Shown here in pieces: positions 21,691 through 35,057 of a stretch of 50,203 bases of DNA. The position numbers were made by a program, and so were the translations under genes. The number at the start of each line of letters is the position of its first letter. Position 1 is the first letter of the stretch. A model generated the notes under the pieces. It had not been told where the DNA came from. It made no database searches and saw nothing but the letters and a program-made list of their open reading frames with translations. Source of the DNA: a virus; the IMG/VR virus record IMGVR_UViG_3300045283_000223, positions 1 to 50,203 of that record; one strand, given 5' to 3'.

Positions 21691-22112
21691 TGGTCTGCCC
21701 TTATTTCGAATGGGATGTAGTCGCCCTGTGGAGTGCCAAACTTCGCCCCGCACCAAGAGAGCCATCGAAGGGATTTCTGGTCATTGGTGTGACCGTGGCC
21801 GACGATGATCGGGTAGTAGTGAAGCATGTCTTCGGTCACGCGCTGGCTGTGGCGGATGAATTGAAAGATGTGGTCTTTGAAATGCCGAGTGGTGTAGAGC
21901 CAGAGGTAGGCCCGGTCGGAAAGCAAGGTAGGCGCGGTAAGGCCCCAAGTGCAAAAGGCGACATCGTCGTCACAGCCGATCCAGGTGAGGGTGGAGTTGG
22001 TCATGACCCGGTGCATGGTTTCACGGTAGATAGGGGATAGTGTTTCTTGGTTCTCACCAAGAATCAAGTTGTAAGATTCAGCTCCAGTGACTTCACGGAT
22101 GTGGAAGGTCAT
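21660..22112 (-). CDS. Internal virion protein A, GNAT-like (T7 gp13 position)
   Basis: 150 aa. Acyltransferase-like order: MTFHIREVTGAE, then a CTWGLTAP strand, then FKDHIFQFIRHSQRVTEDM, ending with LRWLSWCGAKFG and IPFEIRAD. Such GNAT-like proteins are routinely found between the tail nozzle and gp14-like genes in podoviruses. No acetyl-CoA loop is obvious, so activity is doubtful. It is ATGA-coupled to the nozzle gene. Confidence 0.8.
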   Translation of the reverse strand: MTFHIREVTGAESYNLILGENQETLSPIYRETMHRVMTNSTLTWIGCDDDVAFCTWGLTAPTLLSDRAYLWLYTTRHFKDHIFQFIRHSQRVTEDMLHYYPIIVGHGHTNDQKSLRWLSWCGAKFGTPQGDYIPFEIRADQWQRQPALSA

Positions 22113-24949
22113 CGTTTGCCTCCATCGTCGCCAAGGGTGAAGTCGGGGATTACGCCCAGGATAGAGGCAGGTAGGGGCTGGGATTGCTGGATGCAGTACT
22201 GACCGGGAACGGTGAAGGCAGGGGATAAGAAGGTGCGGGCATCACCGGTGACAAGATCGGTGACGATTTGGGATTGTTGACCAGTGAGCATAGAGGAGAC
22301 ATTGCCGACAATCAGATCCTTCATCGGAACAAGGTGGTTGAAGTCTGGGCCGATAGTCAGGCCCAGGGTCTCGGCCACACGGACATCGACGGCGTTGATC
22401 TTCTTCACTTTGCCCTGAATGGTTGGGTCGCCCATTTCGAGGGCTAGGGTCTGAAGCTTGCATGTGAATGGGAGCCCGATCACAACCTTAGACGCAGGGG
22501 CGGAAAGGGTAAATGTGCCAGAGATAGGCATGGTGAAGGACGGGATCACCTTACCGTCAGCGAGGCCGGTCACTGTGGCCCCGGCAAGGAATTGAGCCCC
22601 GGCAAAGGTGGACGCAGGCGATCCGTTGTAGGCGATACCGCAGTCAACGCACCAAGCATCAGCCACGCCCGATAGGAAGATCCGCTCGGCAACACGTTCG
22701 ATGTATTGGATAGTATTGCCGTTTATCGTTCGCTGAACCACAGTGTACACGGCATCGACCTCGCCGGAGGTTGAAGTGTTCTCAATGATTGTGGTGACGG
22801 ATTTGAATGATCCGACGGTGGTGGAATGGGACCAGCCGATGAATTCCTGTTCCTTGAGGAAGGTTAGAGTTAGCATGACCCCATCGGAGCGGATTGCCCA
22901 TACGACCTTGTATGGTTCCTCCGCCCACGCCCAGCCGGTGACGGTGAAGCCGTAGAAGAGATGTGAAGCAAGCGCGGTGATGTCGGTGCCGGTGTAGACA
23001 TTGGCGTAGATGTTGTACGCGGAGTCGCGAACGATGGAGCCTTTGGCCTGGACGTAGAGCACGTCGAAGTTGGCAACGATCGGTGGAATGTCGGAGATCC
23101 CGTTGAAGGACTGAGGATTGGCCACGAGTGCGGCCGGGGAAATGGCGGAGCCGGGCGATCCACCATTGATCAGCCAAGAGGTCCGGTCGGTGAACATCAA
23201 TAGGCCGGAGGTCTGCGGGACCATAGATTTGATTGTGTTTAGCTGGCCGGATACAAGAGTTCCGGTGATGGAATCATCGGCTTGGGTGATAACCGATACG
23301 TTGTAGTTGAAGTACTGCCCCGGTTGGGACGTGTAGAAGGTGGATGGAGCGCCAATGGGGGAGGCCAAGACTAGGCGTTGCTGAAAGAACCCAGGGACGG
23401 AGGGGAAACCATTGCTGGCAGCGCCGAGAGTGGCGGTAGCCGCAGCGGCACCGGATGCGTATGTGACGGTAGGGATGGAGGTATAGCCTGCGCCGGGGTT
23501 TAGGATCTGCACGAGGCCCACGCCCCAGGTAAGATTGGCGGTTGCGCCGGTGCCGATTCCAGAAGTGCCGAGTTGAACCACGGGGTTGGCGGGGGTGGAC
23601 CCGGCGGAGACTGAGCCCACACTACCGCCGACTGTATTGGCTGGTTTCCAAGTGGTGACTGCGCCGGCAGTGACGGTGGCGACGATTAAGACTACGCCGT
23701 TGGAAAAGGTGACGGTGTCGTTGACCACATAGCCGGCACCCCCAGCGCCAATGGTTGGGGTGCCCTGAACCTGAAGCACCGCAGAGATAGACCCGGCGAT
23801 AGTTGAGGCAGCGCCGGTAAGGGAGACCGCAGGAACGGCAGTGTATGTGCCTGCGGCGGTGACGGTTATTGAGGCTACCCCGCTGCCGATGAATGGGTTC
23901 TTGGCAACCGGTGGGGTTTGGGTGAAGTCGGGGGAGATGTTGGAATCGGAGAAGGCCAGGCCGGTGGTGGACCCGATGAAGCCGAAGGTAACGCCAGGGA
24001 CAACTACGGAGACGTAGCTGACATTGGATTTGTAAATGTTGTATCCGACTGCGCCGGGGACGCCGGTCCAGCCAATGTTCATGCTGCCGGCAGTGGTGCG
24101 GAGATCTTGAAATGGGCCGAAATTGGCCTGGGCAGATGGAACGGACTCTTGGCCGTTGCCGTCGATGGCGGTGATTAGATATGCATAGTAGGCAGGGCCT
24201 GAGGTAAGGGAGGTACTGTTGAGCCCAACGAATCCAGGCGGGCCAATTGAGGCGCCGAAGGTTATAGGGAGCAGAGTCCAGTTCGTGGCGGTGATTAGGT
24301 TTAGGATATACGGCTGGTATTTCGGATGGCAGAGGATTAGCTGGCCTACGTTCTGGGCGTATTTGATCAGCTGAAGATCGGCCGCGAGGTATGGTGAGGG
24401 GATTGTATATATCCGCGCGGCGGTGCCACCGGAGGAGAATGCCGTGAAGTGGGTAGAGTCGATTAGGAGCCCGTTTAGATCGGAGAGGGTGACGTTGGCG
24501 CCGGAGACAGAAGCGACTCGGTAATAATTGCTGTTGAGCTGGGTCATCCCATTAACGCCGGAGATGAAGATCCAGTCATTGCCGAGGTAGGTATTGCCGG
24601 GGACCTGGATCACGCAGGGATTGGCGGTAGAGGCAGCGGAGATGGCGAGGCCGGCTTCGAGAATTGGCGATCCGTTGGAGATGAACCGAATGTATTGGTC
24701 GCCAAACTCCAGGACATAGCCAACGGAGAAGCTGGCCTGAAATTGGATCAGCCGAACCGCAGTGGCGGATTTATAGCATTGGATGATGTACTTGGTGCCT
24801 GGACGGGTTGAGGCACCGCCGCGATAGTCGACGAAGAAGTTTTCGAGCAGCGCCGCGCCGGATCGGTATTTGGTCAGATCGACTCGGGCGAAGAGTTTGG
24901 GGGACCACTCACCGGAGTTGAAGGATGCCTGAATTAAGTGGTCGGGCAA
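22109..24949 (-). CDS. Tail nozzle protein (T7 gp12-like tubular protein B)
   Basis: 946 aa from TTG 24949, with GAGG seven bases upstream. The N-terminus IQASFNSGEWSPKLFARVDLTKYRSGAALLENF and the following GGASTRPGTKYI are typical of podovirus nozzle or stabilisation proteins. The middle (about residues 350-490) holds Gly/Thr/Val-rich repeats including GAGYVVNDTVTF, ANPVVQLGTSGIGTGA and GAGYTSIPTVTY, resembling an insert in the adjacent adaptor. The C-terminal half is beta-rich. It closes the tail tube. Confidence 0.88.
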   Translation of the reverse strand: MPDHLIQASFNSGEWSPKLFARVDLTKYRSGAALLENFFVDYRGGASTRPGTKYIIQCYKSATAVRLIQFQASFSVGYVLEFGDQYIRFISNGSPILEAGLAISAASTANPCVIQVPGNTYLGNDWIFISGVNGMTQLNSNYYRVASVSGANVTLSDLNGLLIDSTHFTAFSSGGTAARIYTIPSPYLAADLQLIKYAQNVGQLILCHPKYQPYILNLITATNWTLLPITFGASIGPPGFVGLNSTSLTSGPAYYAYLITAIDGNGQESVPSAQANFGPFQDLRTTAGSMNIGWTGVPGAVGYNIYKSNVSYVSVVVPGVTFGFIGSTTGLAFSDSNISPDFTQTPPVAKNPFIGSGVASITVTAAGTYTAVPAVSLTGAASTIAGSISAVLQVQGTPTIGAGGAGYVVNDTVTFSNGVVLIVATVTAGAVTTWKPANTVGGSVGSVSAGSTPANPVVQLGTSGIGTGATANLTWGVGLVQILNPGAGYTSIPTVTYASGAAAATATLGAASNGFPSVPGFFQQRLVLASPIGAPSTFYTSQPGQYFNYNVSVITQADDSITGTLVSGQLNTIKSMVPQTSGLLMFTDRTSWLINGGSPGSAISPAALVANPQSFNGISDIPPIVANFDVLYVQAKGSIVRDSAYNIYANVYTGTDITALASHLFYGFTVTGWAWAEEPYKVVWAIRSDGVMLTLTFLKEQEFIGWSHSTTVGSFKSVTTIIENTSTSGEVDAVYTVVQRTINGNTIQYIERVAERIFLSGVADAWCVDCGIAYNGSPASTFAGAQFLAGATVTGLADGKVIPSFTMPISGTFTLSAPASKVVIGLPFTCKLQTLALEMGDPTIQGKVKKINAVDVRVAETLGLTIGPDFNHLVPMKDLIVGNVSSMLTGQQSQIVTDLVTGDARTFLSPAFTVPGQYCIQQSQPLPASILGVIPDFTLGDDGGKR

Positions 24950-24958
24950 GAGGGGACC

Positions 24959-26047
24959 TCACAAATACAACGGCCACACACCGCCGAAGTCAAAGCCAGA
25001 GTATGGGCCGGAGACGTAGCCATCGGAATAGGCGACACCGCGAATCCGGATCCAGTCGGGGGTGACGTCGTTGATGGTGAGGCCCTCGTTGCCGTCGATC
25101 GAGCGGGCGGACTGGATGGATTCATTGACCTGTTCGACGAGGAGATTGGCCAGGGCCTTATCACCACGTAGGGCCATCTGTAGTGCGGCCCCGGTGAGTT
25201 TGATCAAGGCCGTTTGGAACAGGGTGTCCATCACGTTGGGGTCGATGATTTGGGACACGTAGTTCAGCGTGGCGAATTCCTGATTGGTAAGGATGACCCG
25301 CTGAACACCCTTGGGGCCGGTGGTGAGGTTGAAGGAGGCGGAGGTACCAAGGCCGGTAGAGGAGCCCATAGCAACTGGGTTGGGTTGCACCGCGAAGTAG
25401 GAGCCGCCCTGTGGAGTGGCTTCGCCGATGATGACGTTGACCACGGAGACGGAGGAGACTTGTGACCCGGATAGGCCGGTGACAAGGAGTTGGGCCGGGG
25501 CCCCAATTGGCGGGGATGTGTTGGGGCCGGAAGCGAGGGTGATGATATCGCCAAGGGCGTGGCCGTTGGAGGAGGCGGTCGGGACCGCGGAGATGATAGG
25601 GATGAACTGATCCGTCTGCACCTTGAACTTCACCGGTGAGCCCCACCAATAGGCGGAGGCACCGCCAGTGACTGCGGTGGTGATTGGGGTGGACCCGGCG
25701 AATCCGGTCTGATTGGCAGGGATGATCGACACCGCACGGAGGCAATCGACGGGGTACTGATATTCGTAGGCCCATGGAGGGGGAGGTTGCCCTGGGGCCC
25801 AGAGTTGGGTGGCTGGGGATTGGTTCTCTGGGGTCCCAGGGATGGAGCAGATGTAGGTGAGGTTTGCAGTCTTGAGTGCACAGTCCCACGGCGCGAGGCG
25901 GAGGAGGTCGTCACGAAGGTTGGCGTAGATCAGGTTGAACTGTATCGCCTCGTTGGAGGTGGAGTTGGCGAGTTCGGCATCGGACACTGTGGTGCGTGTG
26001 CCGATGGTTTGCAGCGCGCGGTTGCAGATGTCCGTGACAGAGGTCAT
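24959..26047 (-). CDS. Tail tubular protein A / head-tail adaptor (T7 gp11-like) with beta insert
   Basis: 362 aa, nearly twice T7 gp11. Conserved ends: ICNRALQTIGTRTTVSDAEL and FNLIYANLRDDLLRLAPWDCALK at the N-terminus, and ALQMALRGDKALANLLVEQVNESIQSARSIDGNEG at the C-terminus. Between them about 150 residues form a Gly/Ser/Pro-rich beta module (HALGDIITLASG, PNPVAMGSSTGLGTSASFNL). It sits under the portal and holds the nozzle. ATGA overlap with the upstream gene. Confidence 0.87.
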   Translation of the reverse strand: MTSVTDICNRALQTIGTRTTVSDAELANSTSNEAIQFNLIYANLRDDLLRLAPWDCALKTANLTYICSIPGTPENQSPATQLWAPGQPPPPWAYEYQYPVDCLRAVSIIPANQTGFAGSTPITTAVTGGASAYWWGSPVKFKVQTDQFIPIISAVPTASSNGHALGDIITLASGPNTSPPIGAPAQLLVTGLSGSQVSSVSVVNVIIGEATPQGGSYFAVQPNPVAMGSSTGLGTSASFNLTTGPKGVQRVILTNQEFATLNYVSQIIDPNVMDTLFQTALIKLTGAALQMALRGDKALANLLVEQVNESIQSARSIDGNEGLTINDVTPDWIRIRGVAYSDGYVSGPYSGFDFGGVWPLYL

Positions 26048-27360: not shown

Positions 27361-28605
27361 TTAAAATCCTGGGCATGATGAAACGGATGATCCGGCTGGC
27401 AGCGCACCGAAGCGCGGGTTGGTGGCTACGGTGAAATCAGTGGCGGCGCAGAGGATCGCGCCGGGCGCTCCGCTGAAGAAGATGCCGTTTGTGTTGGTGC
27501 CGGTTAGAACATTGCCGGATAGCACCGTATGGGCGGAGCCGGTTAGCAACTCGACGGCCGATGTTCCATTCGATGAGAATGTGTTTCCGGTTATCGAAAC
27601 ACCCTGCCCTGCGCTGACGATACCATTGGTCGAACCGGTGATTGTGTTGTTGACGATCGACACCGACGTCGTGCTAGAACCGATCCTAATACAGGCCCCA
27701 CCGGAGTTCTGTTCGCATAGAGAATTCACGATCGCGAGGTTACCACCCGTCATGGTGTTGGCGTCGATCCCTATACCGGTATTGCTTCCGCCTCCGCTTT
27801 GCGCCAAATAGATGTCATTGACGGCTCCGCTGAGGACGAAACCACTTGCTCCGTTAAGCGTGCCCGAAGCGAAGAACATCTGAGCCCCAGCGCCAAATCC
27901 GCCGGAGTTTCCGGAGACAACGATGCCGCTCCCTAAGACGTTGGCATTGGCTTGAACATAGTTCAGGACTGGGCCTGTGGCTCCTGTGTTGGTGGAATTC
28001 CCGTCGAGCCAAATGCCATCAAGTTGGGCGAAGCTCTGGACCACGCTATTGAGTACGACACCGGCGCCGGTGATGTGTATCCCGTACTGATGCCCGATTA
28101 CACCAACATTCGAAATTGTGTTGACGCCTCCAGAATCCAGAATGCCCGGTCCTGTTCGACTGGCGGCGGCAACTGAGCTAGTCACGGCGAGATCATTGAG
28201 TTGTCCGAAGGCCGCCGTGATTGTGATGACCGGCGCCGAAACAGAATTGCCACGGATTTCGGTTGCGCCAGGAACGTTGCTGAACGTTCCGCCCTGACCT
28301 TGGAAGATAATCGACTTGCTAAGGGTGATGTTCGAGACGATGCAGACACCGCTTTGAATGATCAGCGTTCCACCATTTGCGGGCATCGCGGCGACAGCAG
28401 CAGCAAATGCTGATGTATCGTCCGTAGCGCCGTCGCAGAGCACACCGTAGCTTCTGGCGTAGAATGGCCCGTTAACGGAAACCGAAGGAAGGAAAGCGCC
28501 GTTAGATCGAGTCTGGTTGGAACTGCGTGGCGGCCCATCCATTTGGGCCAAGGCTGGAGAGGCTAGGGCTGAGGAGGCCAGGAGAAGGAGAAGAAGTCGC
28601 TTCAT
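27361..28605 (-). CDS. Beta-helix spike-like protein with Sec signal peptide
   Basis: 414 aa. Residues 1-21 form a signal peptide ending ALAQ. The YGVLCDGATDDTSAFAAAV segment is the classic start of the Pectate_lyase_3 right-handed beta-helix found in tailspikes, followed by many helix rungs (VSITGNTF, VSIVNNTITGSTNGI, HTVLSGNVLTGTNTNGIFF). Typical phage spikes assemble in the cytoplasm and lack a signal peptide, so export to the periplasm or surface is predicted. No catalytic residues can be assigned by eye. It belongs to the secreted cassette. Confidence 0.85.
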   Translation of the reverse strand: MKRLLLLLLASSALASPALAQMDGPPRSSNQTRSNGAFLPSVSVNGPFYARSYGVLCDGATDDTSAFAAAVAAMPANGGTLIIQSGVCIVSNITLSKSIIFQGQGGTFSNVPGATEIRGNSVSAPVITITAAFGQLNDLAVTSSVAAASRTGPGILDSGGVNTISNVGVIGHQYGIHITGAGVVLNSVVQSFAQLDGIWLDGNSTNTGATGPVLNYVQANANVLGSGIVVSGNSGGFGAGAQMFFASGTLNGASGFVLSGAVNDIYLAQSGGGSNTGIGIDANTMTGGNLAIVNSLCEQNSGGACIRIGSSTTSVSIVNNTITGSTNGIVSAGQGVSITGNTFSSNGTSAVELLTGSAHTVLSGNVLTGTNTNGIFFSGAPGAILCAATDFTVATNPRFGALPAGSSVSSCPGF

Positions 28606-28608
28606 GGA

Positions 28609-29088
28609 TTAGTAATCCCAGCAGGTGGCAACGACGGCAACTACAGACCCGCCAGAAACAAAGGCGGTGGAAAAGTAGGCTTGGAGGGTATCACCTGAGA
28701 CGATCTGGATGTAGAAGTTGCCGTATTGATCGATAGGGAGTGCAGACCACATTAGATTGACTGAAGGAACGCCGGCTGAGCCACCAGCGCCGGAGGGCAC
28801 ATTGACAGTATTAGCGGTGTAGAGTGTAGCGGCGTTGGTGATGGTGATGGTGACTGGATGGGCGACGGAATCATTGGTCGAAGCCCAGATCATATAGCAG
28901 CGGGAGCCATTGGCGCCGGCGGTGTAGAGGGTTTTGGGGGTGAGTGCGGCGTCTGTGCCCTGAACAAATCGGGCAAGGCCTCGATTAGGGACCTGTGGCG
29001 TGATGAAGGAATTTGGGGTTGTGGCCGCAAAGGTAGGGGAGATCCCAAGGAGTAGTACGGCAAGGATGGCAAGAAGCTTTTTCATCAC
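28609..29088 (-). CDS. Secreted late protein, signal peptide plus beta-rich domain
   Basis: 159 aa (ATG 29088 or 29085). Signal peptide MMKKLLAILAVLLLGISPTFA is followed by a beta-rich domain with two far-spaced cysteines (GSRCYMIW, and VATCWDY at the end) that could form a disulfide in the periplasm. The NGSRCYMIWASTNDS region resembles small phage surface domains. ATGA coupling on the upstream side. No enzyme motif. Confidence 0.78.
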   Translation of the reverse strand: MMKKLLAILAVLLLGISPTFAATTPNSFITPQVPNRGLARFVQGTDAALTPKTLYTAGANGSRCYMIWASTNDSVAHPVTITITNAATLYTANTVNVPSGAGGSAGVPSVNLMWSALPIDQYGNFYIQIVSGDTLQAYFSTAFVSGGSVVAVVATCWDY

Positions 29089-29393
29089 TGTGACCCTGCA
29101 AGAGTGGCGAGAGCGGCGGAGGTGAAGCCTACGTTGGGGATAGCGTAGGTATTATCGGCACGGAGGAAGGTGGAGGTACCGCCGGGGGAGGTGAGGCCAC
29201 CGAAGGCCCCGGCGTTGTTGAATTGGACTTGGCCGTTGCTGCCGCCGGGGATGCCGGTGAGGACGGAGTTGGAGACCGCGCCTGGGATGCCGCCGGGGAT
29301 TGTGCCGCAGATGGTATTGGCTGGAAATACGCCATTGCATTGACCGAAGGCAGCCGAAGGCAGAAGGGTGAGGAGAAGGAGAAGCTTCTTCAT
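29085..29393 (-). CDS. Small secreted tail-fibre-like protein
   Basis: 102 aa from ATG 29393. Signal peptide KKLLLLLTLLPSAAFG with Gln next; then CNGVFPANTICG and GGSNGQVQFNNAGAFGGL, motifs common at the start of phage fibre proteins, and a short C-terminus (ADNTYAIPNVGFTSAALA). It looks like the stalk fragment of a fibre with a secretion signal. Part of the ATGA-coupled cassette. Confidence 0.78.
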   Translation of the reverse strand: MKKLLLLLTLLPSAAFGQCNGVFPANTICGTIPGGIPGAVSNSVLTGIPGGSNGQVQFNNAGAFGGLTSPGGTSTFLRADNTYAIPNVGFTSAALATLAGSQ

Positions 29394-29818
29394 TGGAGCA
29401 GGGTCCATCCACCGGTTTCGAGGATTGGTTTGAGAAGGAATGCGCCGTAGGGGGTGGCGAGGCGGATTGTGGTAAGGCCGGAGATGGTCTCACCGGCGAT
29501 GGGGTTGATGGTGTAGGTGTTGGTCCCGGCAAAGCCGCCGACGTCAGCGATGGTGACAAGGGCGAGATACCATTGGCCGGGGATGGATTGTGGGCCGGCG
29601 GTCGCGGCCTTGGAGGATGGGAGGTTGATTGTGACATTGCCATTGGCGGCGATAGTGATTAGGTTGGTCCCGCGGGAGATCGCGTAGGTGCCAGTAGCGG
29701 TGATGGGAAGGATTGCCTGCTGGGGAACATATAGCCAGCCGACCGAAGGGCCCATGAAGACCCGCTGGTATTGGCGAAAGGTGCCGCCCTGGTCGAGATC
29801 GAGTTGTGACGGACTCAT
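29390..29818 (-). CDS. Beta-rich late structural-type protein without signal peptide
   Basis: 142 aa. MSPSQLDLDQGGTFRQYQ opens the protein, then GTNLITIAANGNVTINLPSS and TYTINPIAGETISG, a pattern I know from phage fibre-associated domains that close with GGW. No leader peptide is present, unlike most neighbours, so it probably stays in the virion. Coupled by ATGA on both sides. Confidence 0.75.
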   Translation of the reverse strand: MSPSQLDLDQGGTFRQYQRVFMGPSVGWLYVPQQAILPITATGTYAISRGTNLITIAANGNVTINLPSSKAATAGPQSIPGQWYLALVTIADVGGFAGTNTYTINPIAGETISGLTTIRLATPYGAFLLKPILETGGWTLLQ

Positions 29819-30117
29819 TGGGCCTCACGAAGGAGTTTGGCGTAGGAGGACTTGTTGTACTCGGCTAGTTGGCATTTGGCGACTTCGGCGAAGGCAAGAG
29901 GGCCGAGATCGGCGGCGACCGCGACGGAGGCGATGGCAAGGGTTCGGCCGGCGTAGCGCTCTGGGGACCAAGGGGCCGGATGGCAGTATTCCGCGACCAT
30001 GTGGGAGATGATGACTTCTTGGGTTTGGTCGGCCCAATGGCGTGGGTCGAGGCAGAGATAGGCCGAGGCCGCACCGAGGGTGAAGGCAAGGATAGCGGTG
30101 AGGCCCAGGCGAAGCAT
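29815..30117 (-). CDS. Small protein with N-terminal signal or anchor helix, 100 aa
   Basis: The N-terminus MLRLGLTAILAFTLGAASAYLCL could be a signal peptide or anchor. The remainder has cysteines in YLCLDP, EYCHPAP and AKCQLAE and a helical end. Family not recognised. It belongs to the secreted or membrane cassette by position and leader. Confidence 0.7.
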   Translation of the reverse strand: MLRLGLTAILAFTLGAASAYLCLDPRHWADQTQEVIISHMVAEYCHPAPWSPERYAGRTLAIASVAVAADLGPLAFAEVAKCQLAEYNKSSYAKLLREAQ

Positions 30118-30120
30118 CGG

Positions 30121-30651
30121 TCAGACTCGACGGGTGGAAGGGGTAGGTTCGGGTTCGGCCGCGGGGACGGCAGCCTCGAGTACAGCAAGGCGGGCCTCCA
30201 GAACTTCGACCTCAGTGGTCACTGGTGCCGGTGGCGCCACCTTCGCAAAGTTCTCCATCATGGCTTTCATGAAGGCGAGCTCTTTGGAGTCCATGCCGCC
30301 GTTGACTGGGAGGGTCTCGATTGGGTGCTCCCACTTGGGGCGCAGCCGATCGGTGATTTCCTGGGCGGCGTCGTTCAGTGGCTCCATCTCGGGGGTGGGA
30401 TCGCTGGAGAAGATGTAATCCCGCGGGTTGTTGTGGTCGCCTTTATAGGCGACAATGATCTCGCTGGGGTGGTTGAAGTCGGAGGGGTCCTTGGGGTTGA
30501 GGTACATTGGGACGGGGAAGAGTTTCCGGACGGTACGCCCGGTCTCGCGCGCGGTTTCCTTGTGTTCCCACTCGACACGGGTGCCGTCGGGGAGTTGCTG
30601 AATGTTGAGGTAATGTTCGTTGATTAAGCGCCAACGCGGGGCTTCGGTCAT
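30121..30651 (-). CDS. Conserved-looking late protein, cytoplasmic, 176 aa
   Basis: Starts MTEAPRWRLINEHYLN with a VEWEHKETARETGRTVRKLF segment and PMYLNPKDPSDFN. The middle is acidic, followed by a heptad-like helix (VTTEVEVLEARLAVLEAAV). No signal peptide. This type of protein is common next to fibre genes in podoviruses; its function is unknown. GGAG lies upstream of the start. Confidence 0.75.
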   Translation of the reverse strand: MTEAPRWRLINEHYLNIQQLPDGTRVEWEHKETARETGRTVRKLFPVPMYLNPKDPSDFNHPSEIIVAYKGDHNNPRDYIFSSDPTPEMEPLNDAAQEITDRLRPKWEHPIETLPVNGGMDSKELAFMKAMMENFAKVAPPAPVTTEVEVLEARLAVLEAAVPAAEPEPTPSTRRV

Positions 30652-30663
30652 TGGATAGTCTCC

Positions 30664-31410
30664 TTATTTACTGTTGTATTCTGTGATTAGCACGCAACCG
30701 TTGCCGCCTTGGCCACCGGCTGCGGTAGATGCGGAGCCTTCGCTTTCACCGCCAGAACCGCCACCGCCGCAGGCAGTCCCGGCTACACCGTTTACGATAC
30801 CAGCAGTGGCGTCGACACCAGGGGCACCTCCACCCCATGGACCGCTGGCTCCATAGCCGGATGGGCCATCGGCTGTGGTTATGGTAGCGGCAAAGCCAGA
30901 GCCGCCGGAATTGCCGGTGATCTTGAAATCACCAGTACCACTTGCCGCGCTGCCTCCAAGACCACCTCCACCCGCAGATCCTGCTGCTGTTCCAGCAGCA
31001 CCGAAGGATCCACCCTTTGCGACGCATAAGGTGCCGAGGGAAGTGTCATTGCCGGCAGAACCAGAATTAGCCCCAGTGGCACCGCCATTGGCTGCGGCGG
31101 TGTTAGTGATGGCTTGTGAAGCGCCAACTTGGGCGGAAGTTAGACGGACTCGAGAATAGCCCCCGGAGCCGCCACCACCACCAGAGGTCGCACCAGTGGC
31201 TGCGGCAGCAGCACCTCCGCCACCACCGCCTTGGCCAACGCATTCAACAATGGCAAAGAGTAGATTGGCGTTAGGAGTATAGGTGCCATTGGAGGACGTG
31301 GTGAAGGATTGAAAGGTGGTGCTATAGGCGGCTGCTCCGGAGGTGGTGATGGTTTGAGCCGAAGCCGAGGACAGGGTGAGGGAGAGGAGAAATGCAAACA
31401 GTCGGGTCAT
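30664..31410 (-). CDS. Secreted glycine-rich adhesin-like protein
   Basis: 248 aa. Signal peptide MTRLFAFLLSLTLSSASA with Gln next. A short beta region (FAIVECVGQGGGGGG) leads into long Gly runs and SGGYSRVRLTSAQVGASQAI, then further Gly/Ala/Ser segments and a QGGNGCVLITEYN end. This is the glycine-rich tip domain of phage fibres (polyglycine sheets as in receptor-binding tips). A signal peptide on such a tip is unusual. Confidence 0.8.
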   Translation of the reverse strand: MTRLFAFLLSLTLSSASAQTITTSGAAAYSTTFQSFTTSSNGTYTPNANLLFAIVECVGQGGGGGGAAAAATGATSGGGGGSGGYSRVRLTSAQVGASQAITNTAAANGGATGANSGSAGNDTSLGTLCVAKGGSFGAAGTAAGSAGGGGLGGSAASGTGDFKITGNSGGSGFAATITTADGPSGYGASGPWGGGAPGVDATAGIVNGVAGTACGGGGSGGESEGSASTAAGGQGGNGCVLITEYNSK

Positions 31411-32663
31411 TGGATTGTCCCGTGAATGAAGCCGACGGTGGACGCGGTCTTGGTAGCACAGGCGGTGGAGGATATGACTGCGGTGATACCGACGGAGAAG
31501 AACTCGAATGGTTGCGGGGTGTAGTTGATTGAGCCAATGCCTCCGGCGGCGATGGGGATGCAGTCTTGAAGACCACCGGAAGCGGTGCCAGCGGTAGTAG
31601 CGCCGTCGCCTGGGGCAGTGGCGGAGTTGAAGATCATTAGCCAGCAGGCAGCGGTGCAGTTGGCGTAGGCGGAGATGAGGTGACCGGCAGCGGCCTTGAG
31701 AACGAGGGAAGAGGAAGCAGAACCAGCAACAGAGGAGACTGCAGTGATTGGGTTGCCGGATGAGTCGCCGACGGTGACTTGGTTGATTTGCATCGTGGAT
31801 TGGGTGGCGGGTCCAGAGGTGCCGTTCGCGATAACGAAGCTGGCAGGGAGTTGGTTGACGTCAGGGCCGAGAGCGCCGCGGGTGGTGTAGGCGACCAGCA
31901 GAAGTTGGCCGTTGATTTGGTTCTCCATATACCAGAGAATGTTATCGCCGCGGAAGTATATGACGTATTTGTATGACCCGGTGTCGGTGTGTTGGGGGTT
32001 ACAGGCGCAGCCACCGGAGAAGGAGCCGGGTGCACCGGAAAGGGATTGGGTGGTGACTGGAACGAAGCCTTGAGTGACGGAGAGATCAGCGATTATGGTG
32101 CGAGCGCCAGAGGCCCAGGTGACCGCGCGGAGCTTGCCATCGGTGCCGTCCTCGAAGCCGACGCAATCGGTGCAGTAGGCGGCCGCGGTAGGGGTGGTCG
32201 GGATTGTGCCGAAGCCGATGAATTCGACCGTGTTGGTGGTGGACGGGTTGGAGAGGTTGATGTTGGCCTGGAAGAAGAGGTAGCCGGGGTTCTTGTCGAA
32301 GAAGATCAACTGGGTGGAAAGGGCGGAGAAGCCATTGGCGGAGGTGCCGCCGGCGAGGGTGGTTTGGCCAGTGGCGTTTGAGGCGGCGGTACCGCCGGTG
32401 CCGGAGGTTGGGGTGCGCCATCGGTTGATGGTGTTGAGGGTACCGGTGGAGAAGTCGTCGACGAAGAGTTGCTTGGTTTGATCCGGCCAGTTTTGCACCC
32501 AGCCGCCGTTGGTGGTCGGGACCGCGCCGATGGGGACGCCCTGGGATCCGTTGGAGTAGGAGCCGGCTTGGGGGACAACGTTCGCGCCGCCTTGGATGGG
32601 GAAGGATTGAGCGAAGGCAAAGACGGGCCACAGGGCCAGCAGAAGGGAAAGGATTCGTTTCAT
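31407..32663 (-). CDS. Large secreted late protein with lectin-like beta domain
   Basis: 418 aa from ATG 32663, overlapping the O-antigen-ligase-like stop by ATGA. Signal peptide ILSLLLALWPVFAFA with Gln next. The QLFVDDFSTGTLNTINRWR region and following strands (YLFFQANINLSNPSTTNTVE, then YKYVIYFRGDNILWYMENQ) look like a concanavalin-type beta-sandwich that could bind carbohydrate. The C-terminal 130 residues have paired cysteines (CTAACW, DCIP, STACATK) suited to an oxidising compartment. Longer in-frame starts are not used. Confidence 0.8.
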   Translation of the reverse strand: MKRILSLLLALWPVFAFAQSFPIQGGANVVPQAGSYSNGSQGVPIGAVPTTNGGWVQNWPDQTKQLFVDDFSTGTLNTINRWRTPTSGTGGTAASNATGQTTLAGGTSANGFSALSTQLIFFDKNPGYLFFQANINLSNPSTTNTVEFIGFGTIPTTPTAAAYCTDCVGFEDGTDGKLRAVTWASGARTIIADLSVTQGFVPVTTQSLSGAPGSFSGGCACNPQHTDTGSYKYVIYFRGDNILWYMENQINGQLLLVAYTTRGALGPDVNQLPASFVIANGTSGPATQSTMQINQVTVGDSSGNPITAVSSVAGSASSSLVLKAAAGHLISAYANCTAACWLMIFNSATAPGDGATTAGTASGGLQDCIPIAAGGIGSINYTPQPFEFFSVGITAVISSTACATKTASTVGFIHGTIQ

Positions 32664-33691
32664 TGCAAGCTCCAACGTTGGAGGGCGGCAGGTAGGCGGA
32701 GTGGGTGGGCCGCGTAGTCGCGGGAGATGTTGCCGAGGACGGCGAAGGCGATTAGGGCGGTGATCGGATGGTAGAATGGGAACCAGAAGGCGGCGAGGGC
32801 CGCAGTGGCGAAGACGATTGGCCAATAAAGGGATCGGTGGGCAAGGAGGCCGCAGGTGAGGACGGCGAGGAGAGGGATCGCGCCAATGCCGAATTCGAAG
32901 GCGAGCTGGAGATAGTCGTTGTGGACGAACTGCGGATGCATTACCACATCGGCTGCGTCGCGGTAGAAGACAAGGTCGAAGTTCCCTGGGCCCCAACCGA
33001 GAAGGGTCAGGCCGCGGTAGGCCACGACCCAGATTTGCAGTCGGATGGAGTCGGTCAGGCCGGGGTGATAGGTGAAGATGATGGCGGCGGCCAGGAGGAG
33101 GATTAGGGCGGTTAGGGCACCGAGGTAACGGGCGACAAGACCGGCGGCCAGGATCAGCCACCCGCCACGGGAGCCGGAGAGGATTAGGCCGAGGGCAGGG
33201 CCGGGCAGCCAGAGCCATGCGCGCTCGAGGGAGAGGGCCAAAAGGGCGAGAGCACAGACGGCGGAGGAGACGGTCGGGTTGATTAAGAGGCCAGGATAGC
33301 CGGTGGCGGTGGGGATTAAGATCTCGAAGTAGCCAAAGGCTTGGGCTAGGGCAAAGCCCGTGGAGATGGTAAGGCCAAGGGCTAGGCCGAGCCAGAGATG
33401 GCGGAGGGAGTGGTACATGGAGCCAAGGGTAAAGGTCATGGCCCAGGCGAAGGGGAACCATAGGCCGAGGCTATCGAGGGAGTAGGCCCAAGAGAGGCCC
33501 AAGACGATATAGCCCATGAAGCCACAGCCGAGCCAGAAGGGTACGCTGGGGTGGATAGGGTTGCGATCGTTGAGATGGCCGTAGAGGATCAGGAACGGCA
33601 AGGCCACAGCGAGGACATACCACTGCACGGGTCCACCCTCAGCCTCAGGGAGGTAGGAGATGGGGAGAATGAGGCCGAGGGTGAAGAGCAT
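32660..33691 (-). CDS. O-antigen ligase/polymerase-like membrane protein (Wzy_C type)
   Basis: 343 aa, about ten hydrophobic segments. The start is ATG 33691, with TAAGG eight bases upstream. A periplasmic-loop motif includes RLQIWVVAYRGLTLLGWGPG, then HPQFVHNDYLQLAFEFG with the conserved His-Asn, and SGSRGGWL earlier, all typical of the WaaL/Wzy family that joins O-antigen chains in the inner membrane. In a phage late operon it probably alters host surface polysaccharide. It is followed at once by secreted fibre-like genes. Confidence 0.85.
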   Translation of the reverse strand: MLFTLGLILPISYLPEAEGGPVQWYVLAVALPFLILYGHLNDRNPIHPSVPFWLGCGFMGYIVLGLSWAYSLDSLGLWFPFAWAMTFTLGSMYHSLRHLWLGLALGLTISTGFALAQAFGYFEILIPTATGYPGLLINPTVSSAVCALALLALSLERAWLWLPGPALGLILSGSRGGWLILAAGLVARYLGALTALILLLAAAIIFTYHPGLTDSIRLQIWVVAYRGLTLLGWGPGNFDLVFYRDAADVVMHPQFVHNDYLQLAFEFGIGAIPLLAVLTCGLLAHRSLYWPIVFATAALAAFWFPFYHPITALIAFAVLGNISRDYAAHPLRLPAALQRWSLQ

Positions 33692-33701
33692 GGTAAGGGC
33701 C

Positions 33702-34145
33702 TTACTTGGAGCCTGAGCAGTAGTAGGAGACGACGTTGGACGAGGTGCCAACCTGCGTGGTGATCAGGGCCTGGAAGCCGACGGCGGCCGCAGCGATTGG
33801 GGTGGCGAGGGCAGCCTGGGAGAAGACCATGCAGTAGGGGGTCGCAAGGTAGGCCTTGTTGAAGGCTATGGTGACGCCGACGGAGTTGGCGCCGTTGGTG
33901 ATGAGGCCAGCGGTATCGGTGCCGACCACAGTGCAGGCACCACCGGAGGCGGTGGGGGTGCAAGTGGGGGTGCCCGGGCCGGTGGTGAGTTGGTGGCCCG
34001 GGATGTAGAGGTTGTTGTTGGAGTCGACCTGGAACGCCCCGGTGGTGTCTTGGGAGAGTTGCAGGGCCCGGGTGAAGGTCTGGGCGAGGGCAAAGCCGAG
34101 GCCTAGAAGGAGGATGAGGGCGGAAGGGAGGAGATATTTGCGCAT
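33702..34145 (-). CDS. Secreted late protein, 147 aa, Cys-paired beta domain
   Basis: Signal peptide RKYLLPSALILLLGLGFALA with Gln next. The mature part has NNNLYIPGHQLTTGPGTPTC, then GACTVVGTDTAGLITNG and a C-terminal CMVFSQ and YYCSGSK, a domain shape met in phage decoration and fibre proteins. Four cysteines suggest disulfides outside the cytoplasm. It ends ten bases before the O-antigen-ligase-like gene. Confidence 0.78.
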   Translation of the reverse strand: MRKYLLPSALILLLGLGFALAQTFTRALQLSQDTTGAFQVDSNNNLYIPGHQLTTGPGTPTCTPTASGGACTVVGTDTAGLITNGANSVGVTIAFNKAYLATPYCMVFSQAALATPIAAAAVGFQALITTQVGTSSNVVSYYCSGSK

Positions 34146-34157
34146 GGGGGATTAACC

Positions 34158-34403
34158 TCACTGAGTTACAAGATATATGGTTGCTCCAGAGAGGTTTTGT
34201 CCTCCCTGAAACAGTTGCCCTCCAGCGGGGATCACTGGATCAAAGGCATTTGTAACATCTGCACCAACAGCAAAGGTGCTGCTTCCAGGCGAAACCACAA
34301 GCGCCTGAACCACCTTATCGCCAGCTAGAGCCGAAGGAACATTGATTGCATTTGGCCCAGGATTTGGAAAGGTGCCTATGATGAAGTTAACGATTGTGGT
34401 CAT
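34158..34403 (-). CDS. Small beta protein of the head/fibre region, 81 aa
   Basis: No signal peptide. Strands alternate with Gly/Pro turns (ALVVSPGSSTFAVGADVTN, then GGQLFQGGQNLSGATIYLV). It resembles small capsid-fibre or decoration proteins found after cement genes, but I do not recognise the family. It begins just after the previous stop. Confidence 0.72.
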   Translation of the reverse strand: MTTIVNFIIGTFPNPGPNAINVPSALAGDKVVQALVVSPGSSTFAVGADVTNAFDPVIPAGGQLFQGGQNLSGATIYLVTQ

Positions 34404-34406
34404 GGG

Positions 34407-35057
34407 TTACTCCTCCGTCCAAACGACCGAGCCGTTATATACCGAAGCATTACCCAACGCAGTTGAGTTATTCAGGCAGATCTGCTGCGCGGTACCGCGC
34501 AGTGTGGCGAGTTGGACGTTGTTTTCGGCATCGCGAGCGAAGTGAAAGTCGACTACTCCTGGGGCCTGAGTAGTGGCTAGGCCTAGAGGTAGGGCGATCA
34601 ACTGCGAGTCGATATAGACCGGAGCGGTATCAACAATGGTTGGAGCTGCGGTATAGGTGTTCAACACTGCGGTGGAGGCAGTGTTGAGATTTTGCCCGGT
34701 ATCGCGAGAGGCGATCTGTGTGGCGATGCCTGGATTGGCAGTCGTGGTTGCCACAGTGCCACCAGTATCGAGAGAGGCTCGACGAAGCATTTGGATCGGC
34801 ATGGTCTGTGCCGCAGTGGCAGTGGTGCCCCATAAGGTGATTCGCTGAATGCGAACGATTCTAGTGGCTGATCCTGATATGCATAGGAAGTCTGAGTTGG
34901 CTCCAGTCGGAGGGACCAAAGCGAAGAAGGCAGAGGAATAGGTCTGCTTGGCGTAATAGCCGGTGGAGAGGCCGGGTTGGGGGGTGACATTGACCTGAGC
35001 CAAGCTTGAGGCCAGAAGCCCCAAGAAGATGGCGAGGGAAAGAAGGAGTCGTTTCAT
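34407..35057 (-). CDS. Secreted late protein, 216 aa
   Basis: ATG 35057 with AGGGAGGGC upstream; the long upstream in-frame extension overlaps the cement gene and is not used. Signal peptide RLLLSLAIFLGLLASSLA with Gln next. The mature part is beta-rich (RIVRIQRITLWGT, then VVDFHFARDAENNVQLATLR) and ends with QQICLNNSTALGNAS. It resembles small phage surface-exposed proteins of no known activity. It is the first gene of the secreted cassette. Confidence 0.8.
   Translation of the reverse strand: MKRLLLSLAIFLGLLASSLAQVNVTPQPGLSTGYYAKQTYSSAFFALVPPTGANSDFLCISGSATRIVRIQRITLWGTTATAAQTMPIQMLRRASLDTGGTVATTTANPGIATQIASRDTGQNLNTASTAVLNTYTAAPTIVDTAPVYIDSQLIALPLGLATTQAPGVVDFHFARDAENNVQLATLRGTAQQICLNNSTALGNASVYNGSVVWTEE

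Follow-up and report, generated by a model that had tools for sequence, protein, structure and literature searches.

The IMG/VR virus record analysed here, a single stretch of 50,203 bases (hereafter, the window), carries its late genes on the minus strand and holds, between the genes for the cement protein and the tail adaptor, a cassette of eight genes (A to H) whose products all begin with a predicted Sec-type leader and, in part, continue into domains resembling phage fibres, spikes or decorations. These leaders are very probably genuine signals for Sec and signal peptidase I, so that the proteins would be exported during infection. As to their destination, chances are about even that they serve the phage itself in receptor binding and decoration, acquiring their fold in the periplasm and becoming attached to virions when the cell lyses. 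The strictest version of this model is advanced more tentatively and falls somewhat short of an even chance: receptor-binding spikes and decorations would never fold in the cytoplasm but would be Sec-exported, oxidised in the periplasm and added to the virion only at lysis, with assembly split across the inner membrane.

Sec-type leaders in the late operon

The window is an epsilon15/BPP-1-like podovirus, as it encodes a homologous major capsid protein, portal, tail adaptor and tail tube with gene order kept. Specifically, the late genes run from terminase, portal and scaffold to the major capsid protein (phrog_212), the cement protein (phrog_427), the cassette interval, the tail adaptor (phrog_394) and tail tube B (phrog_376). 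The major capsid protein shares 47-55% identity with phages of the epsilon15, phiV10 and BPP-1 type, and over 500 of its relatives are encoded on IMG/VR contigs.

Leaders were scored with a rule set of our own (charge of the n-region, hydrophobic core and the -3/-1 rule) and not with SignalP, both gene calls and leader calls deriving from our own scripts. All eight genes named in an earlier note on this DNA pass the scorer, with a positive n-region, a hydrophobic core and small residues at -3 and -1, while none of the other 58 called genes of the window does (0/58). Among 540 non-gene ATG frames taken as control, six pass, one being another start of gene F and one lying within the WaaL-like gene described below; on these counts a chance origin of the leaders was rejected. 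Gln follows the predicted cut in six of the eight leaders, as the earlier note had stated, and Ala or Tyr in the others. The leader ATGs of genes C, D and F sit within a 4-base ATGA overlap with the preceding gene, which makes these starts credible and led us to discard wrong start codons as an explanation. In addition, the proteins were rejected as lipoproteins cleaved by signal peptidase II, since there is no Cys at +1 and hence no lipobox; gene F has its Cys at +2.

In detail, and with the predicted cut marked by a slash, gene A (34407..35057; 216 residues) is the first gene after cement and joins the leader MKRLLLSLAIFLGLLASSLA/Q to a predicted viral jelly-roll domain. Gene A2 (34158..34403), a small late protein of 81 residues with a strong Shine-Dalgarno sequence and no leader, is followed by gene B (33702..34145; 147 residues), in which the leader MRKYLLPSALILLLGLGFALA/Q precedes a domain similar to spike tips and H-type lectins. 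Next comes a WaaL/Wzy-like polytopic membrane protein of 343 residues (32660..33691), most likely starting at the ATG at 33691. Gene C (31407..32663; 418 residues; MKRILSLLLALWPVFAFA/Q) has a Cys-rich mature part and gene D (30664..31410; 248 residues; MTRLFAFLLSLTLSSASA/Q) a glycine-rich fibre-tip domain, whereas gene E0 (30121..30651; 176 residues) is a conserved small late protein that never has a leader. Gene E (29815..30117; 100 residues) bears the least certain of the eight leaders, MLRLGLTAILAFTLGAASA/Y, with a score of 6.2, an odd number of Cys and no family beyond this single member. Gene F0 (29390..29818; 142 residues), nearly Cys-free and again never with a leader, precedes gene F (29085..29393; 102 residues; MKKLLLLLTLLPSAAFG/QCNGVF), a short form of a fibre family of 400-700 residues. 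The cassette closes with gene G (28609..29085; 158 residues; MKKLLAILAVLLLGISPTFA/A) and gene H (27361..28605; 414 residues), whose leader MKRLLLLLLASSALASPALA/Q is followed by a putative right-handed beta-helix. The starts that the earlier note had assigned to the eight genes are correct, except that the one placed at 29088 more likely lies at the ATG at 29085. Similarly, its description of the interval as eight leader-bearing proteins is right as to the leaders but incomplete, as the leaderless A2, E0 and F0 share the same interval.

Conservation of leaders, cleavage sites and paired cysteines

In the soil relatives of the window, the interval from cement to tail adaptor (2-9 kb, median 5.4 kb) is likewise full of leader genes, with up to eight leader-bearing proteins per cassette. 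In 93 of 100 distinct loci, the sampled loci being related to one another, cement is directly followed by a leader gene. As for the seven exceptions, five have an uncalled stretch of at least 600 bases after cement, in one an additional gene precedes the leader gene, and one starts with MRDLLALLLWALVAPAFAQ, a likely leader missed by the charge rule. Leaders are a property of families: they are found in 98% of 60 homologues of A, 95% of 21 members of a family alternative to A, all homologues of B (48/48) and C (39/39) and 96% of 26 homologues of F, and never in families E0 (0/69), F0 (0/28), I (0/29) and L (0/25). A homologue of gene G with a leader occurs in one relative (L024), right after a short F. 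In the window itself, F (29085-29393) is cut to 102 residues, most relatives having 400-700, and is then followed by G and H, as if separate genes had replaced the fibre tip; L024 likewise combines a short F with G. A Cys-free basic protein of about 50 residues (MPSKSAKQARTMAAAAHNPQFAKKVG...) was also seen in L003 (19162-19308) and in 12 other relatives, at varying positions within their cassettes.

Outside this clade, BPP-1, Caulobacter phage Jess A, zth2-2 and vir555, as well as prophages of Acetobacterales, Agrobacterium and Gastranaerophilales, have only one to three small genes between cement and adaptor, all leaderless except one in vir555, and the cassette is therefore an elaboration of the window's clade. 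When A, B, C, F and the WaaL-like gene were compared with 50,697 phage records, none of them found a match. E0 may be linked to the small bbp15-like gene of relatives, but the similarity is no more than suggestive (hhalign probability 20%, E 0.001). The near-universality of the cassette in the clade also bears on whether these genes are accessory morons of a temperate phage, comparable to lambda lom and bor, expressed in the lysogen and changing the host surface. Exported moron products are known, and the capsid family does include temperate phages (BPP-1, epsilon15 and the Acetobacterales prophages); nevertheless, the cassette genes are translationally coupled in a late operon, and no integrase or repressor family was found among the window proteins scanned. 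Taken together, a moron origin seems most improbable.

Within families, the leaders drift in sequence and in length (15-26 residues) while Ala at -1 and Gln at +1 stay; the residue before the cut and the Gln after it rank with the best-conserved positions anywhere in the protein, and the signal-peptidase site is better conserved than the hydrophobic core. A second regularity concerns cysteines. Mature leader-bearing cassette proteins have an even, non-zero number of Cys in 143 cases, an odd number in 8 and none in 16, as compared with 65, 74 and 95, respectively, for the leaderless cassette genes. When relatedness was limited by comparing disjoint nearest pairs, the difference in Cys number was even in 22 of 28 leader pairs versus 36 of 128 leaderless pairs (Fisher p=1.4e-6). 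In particular, Cys numbers are even in 59 of 60 homologues of A, in all 39 of C and in 23 of 26 of F, a family in which the count ranges from 2 to 16, and 47 of 48 homologues of B have 2 or 4; by comparison, parity is mixed in E0, and 24 of 28 members of F0 have no Cys. Such an even count, changing by pairs, is as expected if disulfides pair in an oxidising compartment.

The preference for Gln at +1 (71% of the phage leaders) may in part be a habit of the host type, as this residue is found in 47% of Terriglobia leaders (19/40) and 18% of Hyphomicrobiales leaders (7/38). It was therefore rejected as a separate signal, and its frequency hints at an acidobacterial host. Leaders of the Terriglobia genomes surveyed (L258-L297) appear to favour +1 Gln, a possible host clue for phage secreted proteins in general. 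Host searches with gene F gave weak, partial matches only (299 genomes of the Terriglobia class and 397 of the Agrobacterium order). The major capsid protein has an 80% match on a contig binned in a Terriglobia metagenome-assembled genome (L086) and an 85% partial match on a contig in a Telmatospirillum one (L087), the binning of viral contigs being unreliable.

A further line of evidence comes from Acetobacterales prophages with capsids 54-59% identical to that of the window, which hold a spike gene between tail adaptor and tube B. This slot is leaderless in four of them (L334, L336, L088 and L090) and leader-bearing in three (L332, L333 and L089), L333 having two leader-bearing spikes in tandem. 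The leader-like spike of L089, from Saccharibacter floricola DSM 15669, has a Cys in a VGC context within its leader and could for that reason be a lipoprotein; L088, with its leaderless spike, is from Saccharibacter sp. EH611. The leaderless spikes start with FPxWxxNYxPTxxEW; where a leader is present, this motif starts at most a few residues away from the predicted cut. In other words, the predicted cut restores the leaderless N-terminus, which indicates that the leader has been added to a genuine tail spike and forms no part of its virion anchor. The earlier note had named embedded virion anchors as an alternative. In a broader form, the leaders would be hydrophobic anchors that are never cleaved off, or assembly tags, on virion proteins made in the cytoplasm in the ordinary way. 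This would suit the location of all the genes within the virion operon and the N-terminal helix that AlphaFold2 models set apart from the domain. It is hard to reconcile, however, with -1 and +1 residues kept while cores and lengths drift, with even Cys numbers only in the leader families, with a +1 Gln habit like that of Terriglobia secreted proteins and with homologous spikes that start at the cleavage point, so that anchors of this kind appear very unlikely.

Mature domains and probable destination of the putatively exported proteins

The mature parts had been described as fibre-, spike- or decoration-like, and this description is borne out by Pfam, PHROGs and fold comparison for genes D, B and A. 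Gene D matches PF21722 (Gly_rich_2; 32.5 bits, above cutoff) and the tail family phrog_863 (E 2.7e-25). The AlphaFold2 model of gene A is a viral jelly roll (mean predicted local distance difference test score, pLDDT, 81) that finds matches among uncultured Caudovirales proteins in BFVD, with E values down to 3.6e-13. Leaderless relatives of gene A are likely present in LIMEzero and CVT22, as assigned through the protein length in the records, and a jelly-roll domain of this kind was also noticed within a leaderless fibre-like protein of 688 residues on a 162-kb contig (L235, 4450-6516). For gene B the model is moderate (pLDDT 76); its C-terminal sandwich of 70 residues matches the tips of tailspikes and of pyocin fibres as well as H-type lectins with Z 6-7, the VIA-align scores being 7.0 for the Pam1 tailspike tip and about 6 for Sf6, LKA1, AP22 and Helix agglutinin. 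These are middling scores over a short match, yet the top rows agree. Gene H matches the beta-helix profile PF13229 below the curated cutoff (E 1.2e-4). Finally, family F combines a near-invariant mature start (QCNGVF...C) with a hypervariable remainder and C-terminus, a layout suggestive of a virion-attached fibre with a fixed base and a changing tip. PDB sequence searches with the gene A and WaaL-like alignments returned nothing useful.

The membrane protein encoded amid these genes would belong, on family-level matches and motifs, to the Wzy_C/O-antigen-ligase superfamily, in agreement with the earlier assignment: Wzy_C (PF04932) matches five of eight homologues (best E 0.0011), the window's own member having no match, and the family is hydrophobic with invariant SRG and HND..Q...E.G motifs. 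On four IMG/VR contigs (L248, L250, L251 and L252), a WaaL-like homologue adjoins leader-bearing late genes on stretches with none of the clade's capsid, cement, adaptor or E0 genes, and the pairing may therefore not be confined to one lineage. A Wzy_C polymerase is carried by epsilon15 as well, where it is tied to O-antigen conversion (PMC4815439).

The export of receptor-binding-like proteins, as first proposed from the leaders, gains support from the conservation of leaders family by family, from the signal-peptidase site, from Cys parity and from the spike pairs. The same proposal had suggested, as possible purposes, a coat on or modification of the host surface, a superinfection block or a released decoy. 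A role of this kind outside the virion is the main rival to a virion destination: the Sec-exported proteins would cover the surface of infected cells, act on its glycans by binding or cutting them, prevent superinfection or serve as soluble binders set free at lysis, together with a glycan-altering Wzy_C enzyme. Leaders and paired Cys, lectin-like and jelly-roll folds, cassettes of as many as eight proteins, the Wzy_C gene amid leader genes (also where none of the clade's capsid genes is seen) and the epsilon15 precedent would all fit such a role, for which we see roughly one chance in three. On the other hand, the cassette is nearly universal and lies within the virion operon, the spike slot of the prophage relatives holds the same spike with or without a leader, and no leaderless fibre or spike was found elsewhere in the window, nor any counterpart of BPP-1 mtd or bbp9 in its genome. 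For these reasons a virion destination is favoured, and the evidence leans to exported virion spikes rather than to a coat, a superinfection block or a decoy.

According to the virion model, late in infection the virion operon would give rise to the phage's set of proteins for receptor binding and decoration, with a jelly roll, a lectin-like tip, a glycine-rich tip and a beta-helix fibre among them. These would pass the inner membrane unfolded, be cleaved, usually between Ala and Gln, and fold and form disulfides in the periplasm, with heads and tails being put together in the cytoplasm. Once the cell has been opened by holin, endolysin and spanin, completed spikes would meet the virions and attach to them, the mature N-terminus of each spike making the contact. 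Some members would also express a Wzy_C membrane enzyme alongside, which would change the surface glycan. We infer export itself strongly, attachment at lysis moderately and the role of the Wzy_C enzyme weakly. Attachment after lysis is feasible, since the tailspikes of P22 can join completed heads outside the cell. Other genes of the window encode a lysozyme-type endolysin, which has a hydrophobic segment at its N-terminus, a DNA polymerase A, a UvrD-like helicase and a uracil-DNA glycosylase, and there is a weak spanin match.

Several points weigh against the virion model. The accepted view is that fibres and spikes of tailed phages are synthesised and attached within the reducing cytoplasm, and attachment after lysis would be unusual among Caudoviricetes. 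One virion needs fewer proteins for adsorption than arrays of up to eight provide, fibre genes are uncalled in some relatives, and the leader calls depend on our own rules in place of SignalP. Moreover, the leaderless F0 or inserted tail-tube domains could be the receptor binders. Tail tube B (22109-24949) has 946 residues versus 681 in BPP-1 and the tail adaptor (24959-26047) 362 versus 223, and both contain insertions, beta-rich and repeat-like, which may form surface domains.

Should a widespread soil clade export its binding proteins, its host range would hinge on folding and disulfide formation in the periplasm. Annotation practices that take a signal peptide as grounds for excluding a protein from the virion would then be wrong for such phages. 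A direct test is offered by the Acetobacterales prophages, which have leaderless and leader-bearing spikes in the same slot, one such pair being in the Saccharibacter strains named above.

Comparison with known systems

In the open-access papers searched, arrays of fibre genes with leaders were nowhere described for tailed phages, subscription papers being outside the scope of the search. The closest relatives, podoviruses of the epsilon15, BPP-1 and phiV10 type (Rauchvirus and relatives), share with the window the order of capsid, cement, portal, adaptor and tube genes; however, between cement and adaptor BPP-1 and three further records carry just one or two small genes, leaderless save for one in L085 that scores as having a leader, as opposed to the 2-9 kb of mostly leader genes found here. 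Podovirus tailspikes such as those of Sf6, Pam1, LKA1 and K64-1 resemble the tip fold of gene B and the beta-helix of gene H. To our knowledge, these tailspikes are made without a leader, whereas in the window the tip-like domain and the helix are encoded by separate genes, with Sec leaders and paired cysteines.

Cleavable Sec leaders on virion proteins are known from pIII and pVIII of filamentous phages, which are assembled at the inner membrane without lysis; the window, by contrast, is a lytic-type tailed phage with cytoplasmic capsid genes. Morons of the lambda Lom/Bor type are also phage proteins exported by Sec, but here the genes form a coupled, clade-wide array of fibre-like proteins within the structural operon. 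Finally, the Wzy-beta proteins of O-antigen conversion in epsilon15 and D3 provide a case of a Wzy_C-type membrane protein in a phage with a related capsid (PMC4815439), with the difference that in the window the Wzy_C-type gene stands in the late operon, amid genes for putatively exported fibre-like proteins.

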